DNA of 64,000 bases, taken from positions 1 to 64,000 of the forward strand of contig SVPI01000004.1 in NCBI GenBank assembly GCA_015065935.1. Direction: 5' to 3'. How positions within the stretch are numbered: position 1 is the stretch's first letter; the number at the start of each line of letters is the position of its first letter. This DNA comes from Oscillospiraceae bacterium (GTDB lineage: Bacteria > Bacillota > Clostridia > Oscillospirales > Acutalibacteraceae). Shown one piece after another: positions 58,268 through 63,935 of the stretch. The notes under the pieces were generated by a model. It worked only from the letters and a program-made list of their open reading frames with translations, made no database searches and was not told the DNA's origin. The position numbers were made by a program, and so were the translations under genes.

Positions 58268-58302
58268 AAAAAGCCACGGAAATTCCGTGGCTTTTTCTTT
58301 TT
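58268..58302. terminator. Bidirectional terminator
   Basis: AAAAAGCCACGGAA and TTCCGTGGCTTTTT form a near-perfect 14-pair palindrome between convergent genes. Confidence 0.93.
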
Positions 58303-59246
58303 TAAAGGGAATTAACCAGCGCCCCAAAGGTGGCAAAGTCCTCTTCCCTTACTATTTTAATGTTATTTATACTGCTTTCAATAAAGTTTATTTCGTATCC
58401 TAAATTATGCATAAGCATTGTGCAGCAGGATTCACTTAAAGGGTGCCCTTCCCTTTTCGCCTTGGCAAACACGCCGCTTATAACCGACAGGCGGTGGGCT
58501 TCGGGAGACTGCATTGCCACAACCGAATCGCGGTTAATATATTTCGCACCATTTTCTGATATTTGAAACTGCACATAATCATCCATTAAATGCCCAATGG
58601 TGGCACTACCCTTTTCGTTGCACTCCTTTAACAGCCGTGAAATCATTTCCCCTGTAACCATTGGTCTTGTGGCTTCTTGTACCACAACAATATCATTTAA
58701 TGAATAGGCATTCTTTATATTTTCTAAGGCATTTTGCAGTGACTGAATACCGCTAATACCATTTGGAACAAGGGCTTTAAGTTTGGTAATTTCGTACTGT
58801 TCGGCATAGGCGGTTACAATGTTTTCCCAGCCCTTAAGGCACACAATATAAATATCATCAATAAGTGGATGATTTTGATATGCCTCCATACAATAAACAA
58901 TTATAGGCTTACCGTTAACGTTGACAAATTGGCTCGGTATGTTTTGTTTGTTTCTGCCCGATTTTCCGCCTGCTAAAATAATTACAATGTTTTTGTTTCG
59001 TTTTTGGGAGATAGCAGCACTCTCAAAAGTAATTGATTTTGGAGAGGTGTATCCCATTATCAGCTCCTCAACGGTGGTATCCAGCACTGTTGCAAATTTT
59101 TGTAGTTTCTTATGGGAAACATCATTTTCCCCCGATTCAATTTTTGCAATGGTGGAACGGGTTTTGTATCCGAGCGCATCAGCCAGCTCCTGCTGGGACA
59201 TTCTCATTTCATATCTACGCTTTTTAATGTTTGCACCAACCGACAT
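58302..59246 (-). CDS. XRE-type regulator fused to an IspD-like domain with a lost catalytic Lys
   Basis: A 314-residue fusion. Residues 1-66 are a helix-turn-helix of the Xre/Cro type (MSQQELADALGYKTRSTIAK). Residues about 85-314 follow the IspD/TarI cytidylyltransferase fold: ILAGGKSGRNKQNIPSQF, QEATRPMVT, NRDSVVAMQSPEAHR, and NIKIVREEDF. The catalytic Lys of the normal PKQ motif (Lys27 in E. coli IspD) is Ser here, and the Asp of HDAARP is Glu, while the Arg and the NIK lysine remain. It is probably a nucleotide or product sensor rather than an enzyme. Its -35 overlaps an inverted repeat, pointing to self-control. Confidence 0.85.
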   Translation of the reverse strand: MSVGANIKKRRYEMRMSQQELADALGYKTRSTIAKIESGENDVSHKKLQKFATVLDTTVEELIMGYTSPKSITFESAAISQKRNKNIVIILAGGKSGRNKQNIPSQFVNVNGKPIIVYCMEAYQNHPLIDDIYIVCLKGWENIVTAYAEQYEITKLKALVPNGISGIQSLQNALENIKNAYSLNDIVVVQEATRPMVTGEMISRLLKECNEKGSATIGHLMDDYVQFQISENGAKYINRDSVVAMQSPEAHRLSVISGVFAKAKREGHPLSESCCTMLMHNLGYEINFIESSINNIKIVREEDFATFGALVNSL

Positions 59247-59274
59247 AAAATACCTCCAAAAATACGTTATGTAT

Positions 59275-59303
59275 ATTATAAATCAACAACAAGTGATTTT
59301 CAA
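59275..59303 (-). promoter_or_regulatory. SigA promoter of the XRE-IspD-like gene
   Basis: Minus strand TTGAAA, 17-base spacer, TATAAT. The -35 lies in one arm of the inverted repeat at 59291-59319. Confidence 0.65.
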
Positions 59304-59319
59304 GGGCTAAAAATCACTT
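59291..59319. promoter_or_regulatory. Inverted-repeat operator between divergent genes
   Basis: AAGTGATTTT, nine bases, AAAATCACTT: perfect 10-base arms. A third half-site, GTGATTTT at 59345-59352, falls between the -35 and -10 of the opposite promoter. Arms spaced by about two helix turns centre to centre fit a dimer of an XRE regulator, most simply the adjacent fusion protein. Confidence 0.65.
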
Positions 59320-59333
59320 TACTTCTCATTTTG

Positions 59334-59361
59334 TTGACTTTTTGGTGATTTTATGTATAAT
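59334..59361 (+). promoter_or_regulatory. SigA promoter of the nucleotidyltransferase-transporter operon
   Basis: TTGACT, 16-base spacer containing the half-site GTGATTTT, TATAAT; about 55 bases of leader follow. Confidence 0.75.
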
Positions 59362-59415: not shown

Positions 59416-60153
59416 ATGAAAGCAGTTATTTTTAACTCTGGCCTTGGAAATCGTATGGGTGATTTCACAAAAAACAATCACAAATCAATGGCAAAGCTTA
59501 AAAATGGCGAGACCATTTTTCACCGCCAAATCCGTCTTTTAAGCCTGGAAGGAATTAAGGACTTTTTGGTTACCACCGGTCCTTTTGAGGAGCAGCTTAA
59601 AGGCGAAGCCGCCGATTTCCCCGAGCTTAACTTTACCTTTGTTCGCAACGATATTTATGATAAAACAAACTACATTTATTCAATGTATCTTGCACGCGAG
59701 CATATGAATGATGACCTTATTTTTCTCCATGGTGACCTTGTTTTCAACCGCAAGCTTGTTCGCGATGTTTTAAACTGTGAGGATAAAAACACCGCCACCG
59801 TTAACTTTAAAAAGGCTCTTCCCGAAAAGGATTTCAAGGGCAGAGTTAAGGATGGCAAGGTAATAGAAGTTTCAATTAAGATTTTCGATGAGGACTGCTT
59901 TGCATTCCAGCCCTTCTACAAAATGGAAAAGGCAACCGCCTCTGCCTGGATTGGCAAGGTTGTTGAATTTATCCACAAGGGCGAGGATAAATGCTATGCC
60001 GAAAATGCTCTTAATGAAATCTTCCCTGCCCTTAATGTTCGCGCATTTTCTTATGAGAACTACTACATCGATGAAATCGACAATCTTGATGACTATAACC
60101 GCGTAACCGCAGAAATTCTGCCCTTTGATGAAGCAGATGCTAAAATATTTTAA
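59416..60153 (+). CDS. LicC-like sugar-nucleotide/phospho-alcohol nucleotidyltransferase
   Basis: A 245-residue single-domain NTP transferase. The P-loop-like start is KAVIFNSGLGNRMGDFT, close to the AAGxGxR form, and the segment HKSMAKLKNGETIFHRQIRLL resembles LicC and PntC-type enzymes that make CDP-choline or CDP-aminoethylphosphonate; metal-binding Asp is likely in FLHGDLVF and the YIDEIDNLDDY end. Phosphocholine, aminoethylphosphonate or a similar phospho-alcohol are possible substrates. AAAGGAG precedes the ATG. It is cotranscribed with the transporter gene. Confidence 0.78.
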   Translation: MKAVIFNSGLGNRMGDFTKNNHKSMAKLKNGETIFHRQIRLLSLEGIKDFLVTTGPFEEQLKGEAADFPELNFTFVRNDIYDKTNYIYSMYLAREHMNDDLIFLHGDLVFNRKLVRDVLNCEDKNTATVNFKKALPEKDFKGRVKDGKVIEVSIKIFDEDCFAFQPFYKMEKATASAWIGKVVEFIHKGEDKCYAENALNEIFPALNVRAFSYENYYIDEIDNLDDYNRVTAEILPFDEADAKIF

Positions 60154-60169: not shown

Positions 60170-61468
60170 ATGGAAACCAAAAAAACTTACGGTTACAACA
60201 GCGCCGATTTTAAGAAGTTCTTAAAATATGCTTGGCTTATGCTGCTGAGCTTCGGCTTTACCTATCTTTTCTTTTATAACGGTAGACAAAACATTAACCT
60301 TGTTTTGCCCCTTATGAAACAGGAATTCCAGTCTGATTTAGGCACCCTTGGCGTTGTTTCTTCGGCACTTTTCTGGAGCTATGCATTCGGTCAGCTTGTT
60401 AGTGGCAGGCTCGGTTCCTTCTTCGGCTATAAAAAGCTGATGATTTTCGGTGTTGCCGCCTCTGCCGTGCTTAATGTTCTTATTTCCTTCCAGCAAAGTC
60501 TTGTAGTAATTGCCATTCTTTGGGGACTTAACGGCTTTTTCCAGGCAATGGTTTGGTCCAACGGCGTTGGCGTTATAAACAAGTGGTGGCCAAAGGAAAA
60601 GCGCGGCTTTGCCTCGGGTCTTGCTACTGCTTTTTCGGGTGTTGCACAGGCTGTTACCTATTTAACGGTTAACTGGTGCCTTATTCTAAACCCCGAATGG
60701 AGCTGGCGTGCAGGCTTCCGCTTCCCCATTATTCCAATGGTTCTTATTCTCATTGTTTTCATTCTTTTCTTTAAAGAAAAGCCTGAGGATGTTGGTCTTA
60801 AACCCTTTGAGGAGCCCGATAAGGAGCTTGCCTCAAACGATGCCGCTTTAGAAGCAGAAATTGCCAAGAAGGGCTTCCTTTATCCCTATAAGCTTTTATT
60901 CAGCGAGCCTAAGGTTATTCTTTTCTGCCTTATTTCAGCCATTGCAGGCATTGGCAGATACGGCCTTCTCACCTGGATACCCACCTATTTCACCGAGGAA
61001 CTGGGGCTTACCCTTAAGGATGATATGTTCACATATATCGTGCTACCCTTAGGTCAGGCCTGTGCAATGTTTGTTTTTCCCTTTATCACCGATAAAATTT
61101 TCAAGGGGAAACGCGAGCCTATGCTTATTCTAGCCTCCATCGTTGCATTTTTGGGTATGATTTGCTTCCCCTTCTTTAAAACACAAATTCCCGCAACAAT
61201 TATGCTTTTTGTTGTAGGCGTGTTCAGTATGGTAACAGGTGTTATTTGGGCAATTGCCGGCGATATGGGTGGCAAGGCACTCTCCTCTACAGTTGTTGGT
61301 GTGCTGGACTGGGCAGTTTATATGGGCGCCGCCATTCAGGCATCTGTGTTTGGATTTGTTAAGGATAGCTTTGGCTGGCCCGCCATATTTATCACCATCG
61401 GCTGTCTTTACATCATTTTGCTGGTACTCACCCTTTTCGCAAGAAAAATGAAAATGAAAAAGCTTTAA
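60170..61468 (+). CDS. MFS transporter, organophosphate:phosphate antiporter-like
   Basis: A 432-residue permease with 12 predicted helices. LFFYNGRQNINLVLPLMKQEF, the first loop GRLGSFFGYKKLM, NGFFQAMVWSNGVGVINKWW and PEDVGLKPFEE recall the GlpT/UhpT (OPA) group importing glycerol-3-phosphate or sugar phosphates in exchange for phosphate. AAGGTGGAG lies before the ATG, 16 bases after the nucleotidyltransferase stop. Together they suggest uptake or export of a phosphorylated compound that is then nucleotide-activated. Confidence 0.82.
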   Translation: METKKTYGYNSADFKKFLKYAWLMLLSFGFTYLFFYNGRQNINLVLPLMKQEFQSDLGTLGVVSSALFWSYAFGQLVSGRLGSFFGYKKLMIFGVAASAVLNVLISFQQSLVVIAILWGLNGFFQAMVWSNGVGVINKWWPKEKRGFASGLATAFSGVAQAVTYLTVNWCLILNPEWSWRAGFRFPIIPMVLILIVFILFFKEKPEDVGLKPFEEPDKELASNDAALEAEIAKKGFLYPYKLLFSEPKVILFCLISAIAGIGRYGLLTWIPTYFTEELGLTLKDDMFTYIVLPLGQACAMFVFPFITDKIFKGKREPMLILASIVAFLGMICFPFFKTQIPATIMLFVVGVFSMVTGVIWAIAGDMGGKALSSTVVGVLDWAVYMGAAIQASVFGFVKDSFGWPAIFITIGCLYIILLVLTLFARKMKMKKL

Positions 61469-61482
61469 TAATTAGACAACAT

Positions 61483-61517
61483 AAAAACACGAGAGATTAA
61501 ATCTCTCGTGTTTTTTT
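61483..61517. terminator. Bidirectional terminator
   Basis: AAAAACACGAGAGAT, loop TAA, ATCTCTCGTGTTTTTTT, between convergent operons. Confidence 0.93.
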
Positions 61518-62862
61518 ATTTTATCATTATTGTATCTTTACCTGAGTAGTAATCCTCAATAACCGTTGTAATTGCTTCGGAAACCTTTTCGCCTATGTAA
61601 TTATCGGTATTGCCTGTTTGAATTGCCTTGCAGAAATTAACCAGCTCATACCTTATGCCTTCGCCATCAAGCTGATAGAAATAACGCCTATTATCGGCAG
61701 GGTTTTCATAGCGTATTTCAAAATAGTCGGTTTTCCACCAAGGGGCCGGAACATAAACATAACCCTTTGTGCCCGAAATTACAAGACTGCCTTCCGATTT
61801 AACACCCTTGCCCACCTTAACCGAGGCTACGGCACCATCATAAATGAAATCAATTTTTGTAAAGGCATCAAAGCGATACTTTTCATCAATAACACGGGTA
61901 ACAGTTTTCTTATCACAATATTCCGTGCCGAGAATTTGGAAAACAGGCAGAAGGGCGGTAGGTCCCCAAGCACAAATACTGTTCCAGATTTTGGAATAAT
62001 CAGGATTGCTTGCCTCGTTTAAATCGCGCATACTTGTACAGGTTGCATCAATAGAGGTTACCTCACCGATTTTTCCGCTTTTCACAAGCAGCATTAAACG
62101 GTTATATGCCGTTGAAAACGCCGTTTTAACGGTTTCCATAAGAACAAGGCCCTTTTCCCTTGCCAACGCAAAAAGCTCGGTGCACTGCGTTTTTTCAAGG
62201 GCTATTGGTGACTCGCACAAAACATGCTTACCATTTTCCAGTGCCTTTTTAATATGTTCGTAATGCTTTTCCGGGTGCGAAAAAACATAAACCGCATCAC
62301 ACGCATTTAGCAGTTCATCATAGTCTTTCGTGGTGGCAATACCCTGATTTTTTGTGGCGGCGCCGATTTCATCATCAAGGGTGCAAACAGTAGCAACCTC
62401 AAGACCGTTAACAAAGCTGCTTTCATTAATGTGCTTTAAAACAAGCAGACCCTCGCCCACAATTCCAAGCTTTATGCTTCGCTTTTCGCTTCTAAGCTCT
62501 GAGCTGGAAACACCCTGGGTTCGGTCAAGATAAACTACCTTGCAGTACTCATTAAGATAATCGAAGGTGCCGACCCAATCAGAGCCAACGGTGAAAATAT
62601 CAATGCCGTATCGCTTGATATCATCAATTTTTTGACCTTCGTATTCCTCTATAATAATCTCATCGGCAATTCCTGTTGCCTTAATGGCCTCAACCCTTTC
62701 CATAAGGGTCTGCTGAACATTTATTTTGCCGCGGGTTTTATCAAAATCATCGGCAGTTACACCAACAATAAGATAATCACCCAAAGCCTTTGCGCGTTCA
62801 AGCAGTCTGATATGGCCATAGTGAAGCAGGTCATAGGTGCCGTATGTTATAACCTTTACCAT
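61516..62862 (-). CDS. TagD-type cytidylyltransferase fused to a Gfo/Idh/MocA dehydrogenase
   Basis: A 448-residue two-domain enzyme. Residues 1-130 are a glycerol-3-phosphate cytidylyltransferase-like domain: ITYGTYDLLHYGHIRLLERA with the HxGH motif, VGVTADDFDKTRGK, and DRTQGVSSSELR where TagD has RTxGISTT. Residues about 131-448 are an NAD(P) oxidoreductase: LGIVGEGLLVLKHI, DAVYVFSHPEKHYEHIKKAL and HVLCESPIALEK, where the usual EKP is ESP. A dehydrogenase plus a cytidylyltransferase would reduce a phospho-keto compound and activate the alcohol as a CDP derivative. It overlaps the aminotransferase gene by one base. Confidence 0.85.
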   Translation of the reverse strand: MVKVITYGTYDLLHYGHIRLLERAKALGDYLIVGVTADDFDKTRGKINVQQTLMERVEAIKATGIADEIIIEEYEGQKIDDIKRYGIDIFTVGSDWVGTFDYLNEYCKVVYLDRTQGVSSSELRSEKRSIKLGIVGEGLLVLKHINESSFVNGLEVATVCTLDDEIGAATKNQGIATTKDYDELLNACDAVYVFSHPEKHYEHIKKALENGKHVLCESPIALEKTQCTELFALAREKGLVLMETVKTAFSTAYNRLMLLVKSGKIGEVTSIDATCTSMRDLNEASNPDYSKIWNSICAWGPTALLPVFQILGTEYCDKKTVTRVIDEKYRFDAFTKIDFIYDGAVASVKVGKGVKSEGSLVISGTKGYVYVPAPWWKTDYFEIRYENPADNRRYFYQLDGEGIRYELVNFCKAIQTGNTDNYIGEKVSEAITTVIEDYYSGKDTIMIK

Positions 62863-63935
62863 TATAAAAGTCCTCTTTTTTGCATATCTTTAAGGGCTGA
62901 AATCAGTGTGTCGTTATCCTCAAAGGTGAGGGCACCAATGTGTCCCACGCGGAAAATCTCATCCACAAGGGCGCCGCCGTTGGGGCACACCCAAATTCCG
63001 TATTCATCCTTTAAAACTGTAAAAATGCTGTAAGCGCCCACATTTTTGGGATGCAGGGGGGTTACTGCATTTGAAAGCGATTCCGAAACAATTTCAAAGG
63101 GCAAATCCTTAATTTTTTCTCTGAAATCCTGTGCTAAAGCCGCAATTTTTGCAGTTTCGGCTTTGGCGCCGCCCGCCTTTTCAATGGCTTTAAGCCTTGC
63201 ATTGATTTGAAGCAGGGTCCCTACGGCAGGTGTAAACGGAGTTTGACCGCGCTCGCCGTTTTTAAGTGCCGATTTTAAATCAAGATACAAACAGCCGCTG
63301 TTATAAGAGCTAAGTCTGCTTACAGCCTTGCCCGATAAAACAATAACCGAAACACCGGGAGGGCAAGCAAGGGCTTTTTGGGAGCCTGTAATCATAACAT
63401 CAACGCCCCACTCGGCCATTTTAAATTCATCTGCCAAAAAGGAGCTTATGGCATCAACTATGAGGAAAATGCCGTTACGATGGCAAAAATCGCTAATAAG
63501 GTCCATATCATAGTGAACACCTGTGGAGGTTTCGTGAACATTCACAATAAATGCAGTGTAGCCCTTGTTTTCAAAGGGAGCCAGCATTTCCTTTGTAAGC
63601 TTTTTGCCCGCTTCAAGTTTAATTTGTGTGTTGTTAATTTTATGAATATCACAAATTTCCACAAATCGCTGACCGAAGCTGCCGCCGTTCACAATAATGG
63701 CTTTGTCGCGCTCATCTAAAAGATTTATAACAGCCGCCTCCATTGAAGCGGTTCCTGAGCCTGTCATAAAAGCAACGCGGGCATCCTCCCCTGCCTTTGC
63801 AAATTGAAGCATAAGGCGCTCATTTTCCAGCATTACGGCAGAAAACTCGGGGGTTCTGAAATAGGGCACCTGCTGTGCACCAATTTCTCTAACAACCTCG
63901 TCAGCCTGTACAGGACCCACAGTAAAATTTAACAT
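62862..63935 (-). CDS. Class V PLP aminotransferase (AGT/serine-glyoxylate-like)
   Basis: A 357-residue aminotransferase. [17 protein letters not shown] is the family start, [14 protein letters not shown] binds PLP phosphate, [11 protein letters not shown] and [13 protein letters not shown] follow, and the PLP Lys is in [21 protein letters not shown] with PPG is the form in alanine-glyoxylate and serine-glyoxylate enzymes; aminoethylphosphonate transaminase PhnW is a near relative. Given the neighbours it may aminate or deaminate a small phospho- or phosphono-compound. AAAGAGG precedes the ATG. Confidence 0.85.

Follow-up and report, generated by a model that had tools for sequence, protein, structure and literature searches.

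Background

The closest described precedent of the regulator analysed here is BzdR, in which an XRE helix-turn-helix (HTH) domain is joined to an inactive shikimate kinase domain, and which regulates anaerobic benzoate degradation (PMC3602430). The retired enzyme serves BzdR as effector-binding domain; the protein represses a catabolic promoter and is released by its own ligand, benzoyl-CoA (PMC3602430). Our regulator has the same layout, an N-terminal XRE HTH, a linker and a C-terminal retired enzyme. It is a further case of the enzyme-to-regulator kind, with a domain derived from a cytidylyltransferase rather than from a P-loop kinase, and it differs from BzdR also in operator and in its predicted pathway and ligand. 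No transcription factor derived from IspD/TarI, or from any cytidylyltransferase, was found in the literature searched, the coverage of which was incomplete.

Hardly any regulator governing surface tailoring with phosphonates or CDP-alcohols has been described, to our knowledge. IspD and TarI, the MEP and ribitol-5-phosphate cytidylyltransferases, share with the regulator the fold (5hs2, 6xhp) and the cytidine-binding residues, and equivalents of their second Lys and of the substrate-side Arg are kept; in contrast to them, the regulator has lost the first catalytic Lys, the metal Asp and the L2-loop Thr, and has gained the HTH. PntC and LicC, the AEP and phosphocholine cytidylyltransferases, resemble the nucleotidyltransferase (NT) encoded next to the regulator in fold family and in the logic of cell-surface activation. 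They differ in that the nearest relatives of NT have an iron alcohol dehydrogenase as fusion partner instead of an aminotransferase, and NT itself is unfused and encoded with an MFS carrier, PEP mutase usually not being detectable in the genome. PntC makes CMP-AEP, and Fom1 makes CMP-HEP (PMC6697681).

Domain structure of the regulator

The window, i.e. the whole stretch of 64,000 nucleotides analysed, contains the following genes:

58302 to 59246, minus strand: XRE-IspD/TarI fusion regulator, 314 aa (profile matches, alignment, AF2 model)
59416 to 60153, plus strand: LicC/PntC-type nucleotidyltransferase (NT), 245 aa (profile and structure matches)
60170 to 61468, plus strand: MFS carrier of the GlpT/UhpC/PgtP organophosphate group (best match TIGR00881)

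In the regulator, the HTH (residues about 1-65) is followed by a linker (67-80), disordered in the AF2 model (pLDDT 91), and by an IspD-like domain (about 84-313). Residues 7-62 match HTH_3 (E 6e-12; 45.8 bits, gathering score 23) and residues 87-310 match IspD (E 4e-20), which bears out the Xre HTH fused to an IspD-like domain of the original prediction. The score against the IspD Pfam domain PF01128 (73, cut-off 27) passes the broad domain threshold; that against the curated equivalog TIGR00453 is 106.9 bits, below the cut-off of 181.3. The fold is that of IspD: the top PDB match of the model, by Foldseek, is B. subtilis IspD (BsIspD) with CTP, 5hs2 (E 9.5e-21; TM normalised by target 0.89), with S. 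aureus TarI following closely. The catalytic set of IspD (the E. coli Lys27/Lys213 pair plus the metal Asp) is incomplete, as only the second Lys of the pair is kept. The C-terminal shikimate kinase domain of the BzdR subfamily is missing, and NF006015 matches at the HTH only (residues 2-68). The regulator was also considered as the housekeeping IspD of the cell, and rejected as such, since 9 of 10 genomes encode, at another place, a canonical IspD that passes the curated cut-off.

Distribution and ancestry of the fusion

Full-length fusions, the window regulator included, number 11, ten of them clostridial and one from Gordonibacter. Besides the window regulator itself, six come from its family (G234, G070, G296, G256, G659 and G660). 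Those beyond the family belong to the Oscillospiraceae MAG SIG581, to Gordonibacter, and to G856 and G946, from two other families of the class. The genomes compared are mostly incomplete MAGs. The fusion is rare, being present in 5/300 genomes of a family draw and in 3/391 of a class draw (window genome included); an order draw of 394 genomes returned that of the window alone. Searches of viral contigs gave matches to the HTH only, which has its most similar counterparts in repressor-like proteins found there, with identities of up to 58-60%; among plasmids, no match covered 80% of the regulator, and the best covered the enzyme domain.

The fusions range down to 46% identity and span phyla, and their IspD domains form a single clade (support 100/100) on a long stem, within a TarI-like group and apart from canonical IspD. 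Several members of the TarI-like group adjoin LicD genes.

Promoters and candidate operator

The elements identified between the two divergent genes are:

59275 to 59303, minus strand: promoter of the regulator, -35 TTGAAA at 59303-59298, 17-nt spacer, -10 TATAAT at 59280-59275
59280 to 59299, no strand assigned: conserved candidate operator AAATCAACaacaAGTGATTT, consensus AAATCAAC-N4-GTTGATTT (comparison of intergenic regions)
59310 to 59319, no strand assigned: AAAATCACTT, right arm of the repeat originally predicted, in this genome only
59334 to 59361, plus strand: divergent promoter TTGACT-16-TATAAT, -35 at 59334-59339, -10 at 59356-59361
59345 to 59352, plus strand: half-site GTGATTTT in the 16-nt spacer of the divergent promoter

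The original prediction took as operator a 10-bp inverted repeat, AAGTGATTTT/AAAATCACTT, at 59291-59300 and 59310-59319. The repeat exists, and its left arm overlaps the -35 of the regulator; its right arm is conserved in no orthologue, and the repeat was rejected as operator. When the intergenic region (23% GC) is shuffled by preserving dinucleotides, a perfect 10-nt inverted repeat is obtained in 3-8% of the shuffles, and some 8-mer occurs three times in 9%. Since such repeats are not rare by chance in an AT-rich region, conservation is the real test.

In eight anchored intergenic regions, the block 59274-59304 is near-invariant except for five free central bases. Mean pairwise identity is 0.87 for 59272-59304 versus 0.38 in the flanks, the latter corresponding to random similarity. 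The palindrome contained in this block, which can also be written AAATCAAC-N4-(G/T)TGATTT (59280-59299 in the window), reuses the left arm of the repeat and has its conserved partner on the other side; in G070, G659 and G660 it is a perfect 8-4-8 palindrome. In 8/8 loci it fills the spacer between the -35 and the -10 of the regulator promoter, which reads TTGAAA-17-TATAAT in all eight, and a ninth locus, G856, has a recognisable version, with TTGACA-17-TATAAT as promoter. Promoter hexamers are expected to be conserved anyway, spacers normally not. Half-sites unconserved upstream of orthologues would have spoken against the original prediction; a strongly conserved palindrome was found instead. 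A protein bound between -35 and -10 would block the promoter of its own gene.

When up to two mismatches are allowed, the site is found at the regulator promoter of each regulator-bearing genome, with zero, one or two weak sites in addition. The operator is absent in Gordonibacter and G946, where the regulator has other neighbours, and none was found in the PepM locus of SIG581.

The third half-site of the original prediction, in the spacer of the divergent promoter, is also present, with partial conservation: a similar one occurs in 5/8 loci, and a clear half-site is absent from the spacer of 4/9 NT promoters. Its position suggests the same kind of blocking for NT and MFS. Measured from the operator centre, the divergent -35 lies at a distance of 43-45 in six loci, of 33 in one and of 55-56 in two; these steps of about one helical turn are suggestive only, the spacing changes being few.

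Divergent genes and nature of the ligand

Of the 9 clostridial loci outside G946, 8 have both NT and MFS next to the regulator; in the remaining one, G256, only NT is found, at the contig end. NT is 84-90% identical among orthologous loci, above the 58-65% of the regulator. It matches the LicC-like domain NTP_transf_3, PF12804 (37.7 bits versus 27), and LicC and PntC are among its top solved relatives. The MFS carrier scores 171 bits with TIGR00881, below the cut-off of 408. Carriers of the GlpT/PgtP group admit the phosphonate fosfomycin in E. coli.

The next relatives of NT, about 60% identical (55-64%), were found in 11 genomes, all of which have PEP mutase, within a few kilobases of the NT relative in ten. 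In the nine read directly, the relative is the N-terminal domain of an iron alcohol dehydrogenase fusion, sometimes followed by LicD; on account of this partner, assignment of NT to the Treponema-type NT-aminotransferase fusions was discarded. Phosphonopyruvate decarboxylase was identified in one locus (L074), and similar genes lie beside other NT relatives. SIG581 has its PepM, Fe-ADH and Ppd genes together but no NT among them; an NT is found instead at the regulator locus.

PEP mutase is present in the SIG581 genome and was not found in the other 7 of the 8 tested genomes with regulator and NT, namely that of the window (87.5% complete) and the six of its family listed above (66-88% complete for the whole set). 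This leads to a salvage reading, in which the carrier imports a phosphonate and NT activates it. The regulator had been predicted to control genes handling the same compound that it senses; homology of NT to the nucleotidyltransferases of PepM operons narrows this compound to a phosphonate candidate, probably brought in by the GlpT/PgtP-type carrier. Two LicD genes are located at 63991-65679 of the contig of the window. LicD is found in 10/10 genomes, a co-occurrence that was downgraded as evidence after a background count of 70/120 in the family: LicD being common there anyway, its presence lends weak support.

On balance, we favour an autorepressor that senses a CMP-linked phosphonate or a similar conjugate and controls import and activation. 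In a less probable reading, unlikely in our judgement, what the IspD domain senses is a CDP-ribitol-like ligand of polyol type or free CTP/CMP, and the substrate of NT is a different compound, e.g. a phosphorylated alcohol like phosphocholine. The ancestry of the regulator is TarI-like, and its TarI-like kin make a CDP-ribitol-like product. The Gordonibacter and G946 regulators adjoin other genes, including an IspD-like protein: that of G946 comes after an aquaglyceroporin and an FGGY polyol kinase, as would suit a polyol, and that of Gordonibacter faces a LicC-like/choline-kinase fusion, as would suit a ligand other than a phosphonate. With such neighbours and no operator in these two genomes, some of the fusions may not have a phosphonate as ligand. 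However, the operator-bearing loci always pair with the highly conserved NT, whose next relatives belong to PepM-Ppd operons, which speaks against this reading.

Residues of the active site

Residue roles were taken from the structure of BsIspD with CTP (PMC5099578); pocket assignments are based on sequence alignment and known enzyme structures, rather than on a ligand-bound model. In the alignment on BsIspD, Ser105 of the regulator replaces the Lys of PKQ and Glu191, in QEATRP, the Asp of HDAARP, both as originally predicted, and V299 stands where active enzymes have Thr. Over the 11 fusions, BsIspD Lys22 is changed to Ser, Thr or Asn in all, Asp104 to Glu in all, Thr211 is replaced in ten and Arg15 in four; the four residues are all kept in 18/18 unfused relatives. 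Of the conserved PSQ expected in orthologues, the loss of Lys is conserved and the motif itself varies (PSQ, PTQ or PNQ). Metal binding by Glu191 is still conceivable. The P-loop Gly (BsIspD Gly13) was dropped as a sign of lost catalysis, the canonical IspDs of these genomes also having Ser there.

The cytidine/ribose/alpha-phosphate set (A92, G93, G94, S169 and K297) is invariant in 11/11 fusions, and so are R194, the substrate-side R239, and N295. AGG corresponds to the cytidine/ribose backbone motif, S169 to BsIspD Ser86 and K297 to the alpha-phosphate Lys209; G163 (BsIspD Gly80, a cytosine contact) is kept in 9/11 and is Ala or Ser in two. Q190, E191, T193 and S247 are invariant among the fusions and different in unfused relatives. 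Judged from these alignments, the putative sensing half is a probably inactive TarI-like enzyme with its cytidine-binding parts retained, and the proposal of a retired cytidylyltransferase acting as sensor gains support from the combined loss and retention in all 11 fusions.

The same residues bear on a rather improbable reading, in which the IspD domain serves for dimerisation alone, as a scaffold, and the repressor has no small ligand. IspD does work as a dimer (PMC5099578), and catalysis is gone, but a mere scaffold needs none of S169, K297, R239, R194 and N295, invariant over the 11 fusions. A bifunctional trigger enzyme, i.e. a working cytidylyltransferase that also binds DNA, is very improbable: Arg98, Glu191 and Lys297 are still present in the window regulator and the fold is intact, but the first of the two active-site lysines described as critical for the IspD transition state (PMC5020098) is absent in 11/11 fusions, and the Thr pairing with the P-loop Arg is missing in 10/11.

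Proposed mechanism

The favoured autorepressor would have arisen when an HTH of the phage-repressor type was fused to a CDP-alcohol cytidylyltransferase resembling TarI, catalysis being lost afterwards. As a one-component regulator, it would repress itself by binding AAATCAAC-N4-GTTGATTT in the -35/-10 spacer of its own promoter, and the same site, together with the half-site in the neighbouring promoter, would provide control of the divergent NT-MFS operon. What the retained pocket for cytidine and alpha-phosphate would read is a cytidylylated metabolite, and the compound made by the adjacent NT is the likeliest one; the candidates are CMP-phosphonates, e.g. CMP-2-hydroxyethylphosphonate, and CMP/CDP conjugates of a similar kind. 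In this way, a precursor for surface decoration would influence its own import and activation through its level.

The fusion, the lost catalytic residues, the kept binding residues, the palindrome at the regulator's own promoter and the NT-MFS partner can be read directly from the sequence. From these we infer DNA binding, repression, ligand and direction of action, as well as a phosphonate as the substrate, the part of the carrier in transport, and LicD as the final user. More tentatively, the fusions may represent a dedicated class of transcription factors, in which a retired TarI domain reads cytidylylated phosphonates (or CDP-alcohols) and governs the salvage by which bacteria unable to make C-P bonds would decorate their surface with scavenged phosphonates, and which would be carried between families as a regulator-NT-carrier cassette.

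As a case of enzyme-to-sensor evolution, the fusions are a clean natural experiment, the catalytic half of the active site being erased and the binding half frozen. The salvage reading predicts that some anaerobes take up whole phosphonates for surface placement, and the regulator might serve as a genetically encoded sensor of CMP conjugates.

Other gene arrangements

At 61516-63935 (minus strand), the window encodes a fusion of a TagD-type cytidylyltransferase with a Gfo/Idh/MocA oxidoreductase, beside a PhnW-like aminotransferase; with the two LicD genes beyond the window, this looks like a second CDP-linked precursor pathway. The IspD-like proteins adjacent to the regulators of Gordonibacter (L032:7107-7856) and G946 (L102:5788-6510) keep PKQ, have lost the metal Asp (ISFGVSP and HMSSYP) and group in a separate clade; they are possibly partners of the regulator. 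In G946, aquaglyceroporin, IspD-like protein, FGGY kinase and regulator follow in a row (L102:4952-9142), beside two LicD genes, as a polyol version of the import-activate-attach layout.

NT and MFS occur without the regulator, and without detectable PEP mutase, in G023 (99% complete; L066:7761-9817). Very long NT-FeADH-LicD fusions are found beside phosphonate-synthesis genes (L070:3255-8798, L067:1693-4599 and L069:4033-7767), the longest of which, of 1847 aa, also contains glycosyltransferase and TarF-like parts.
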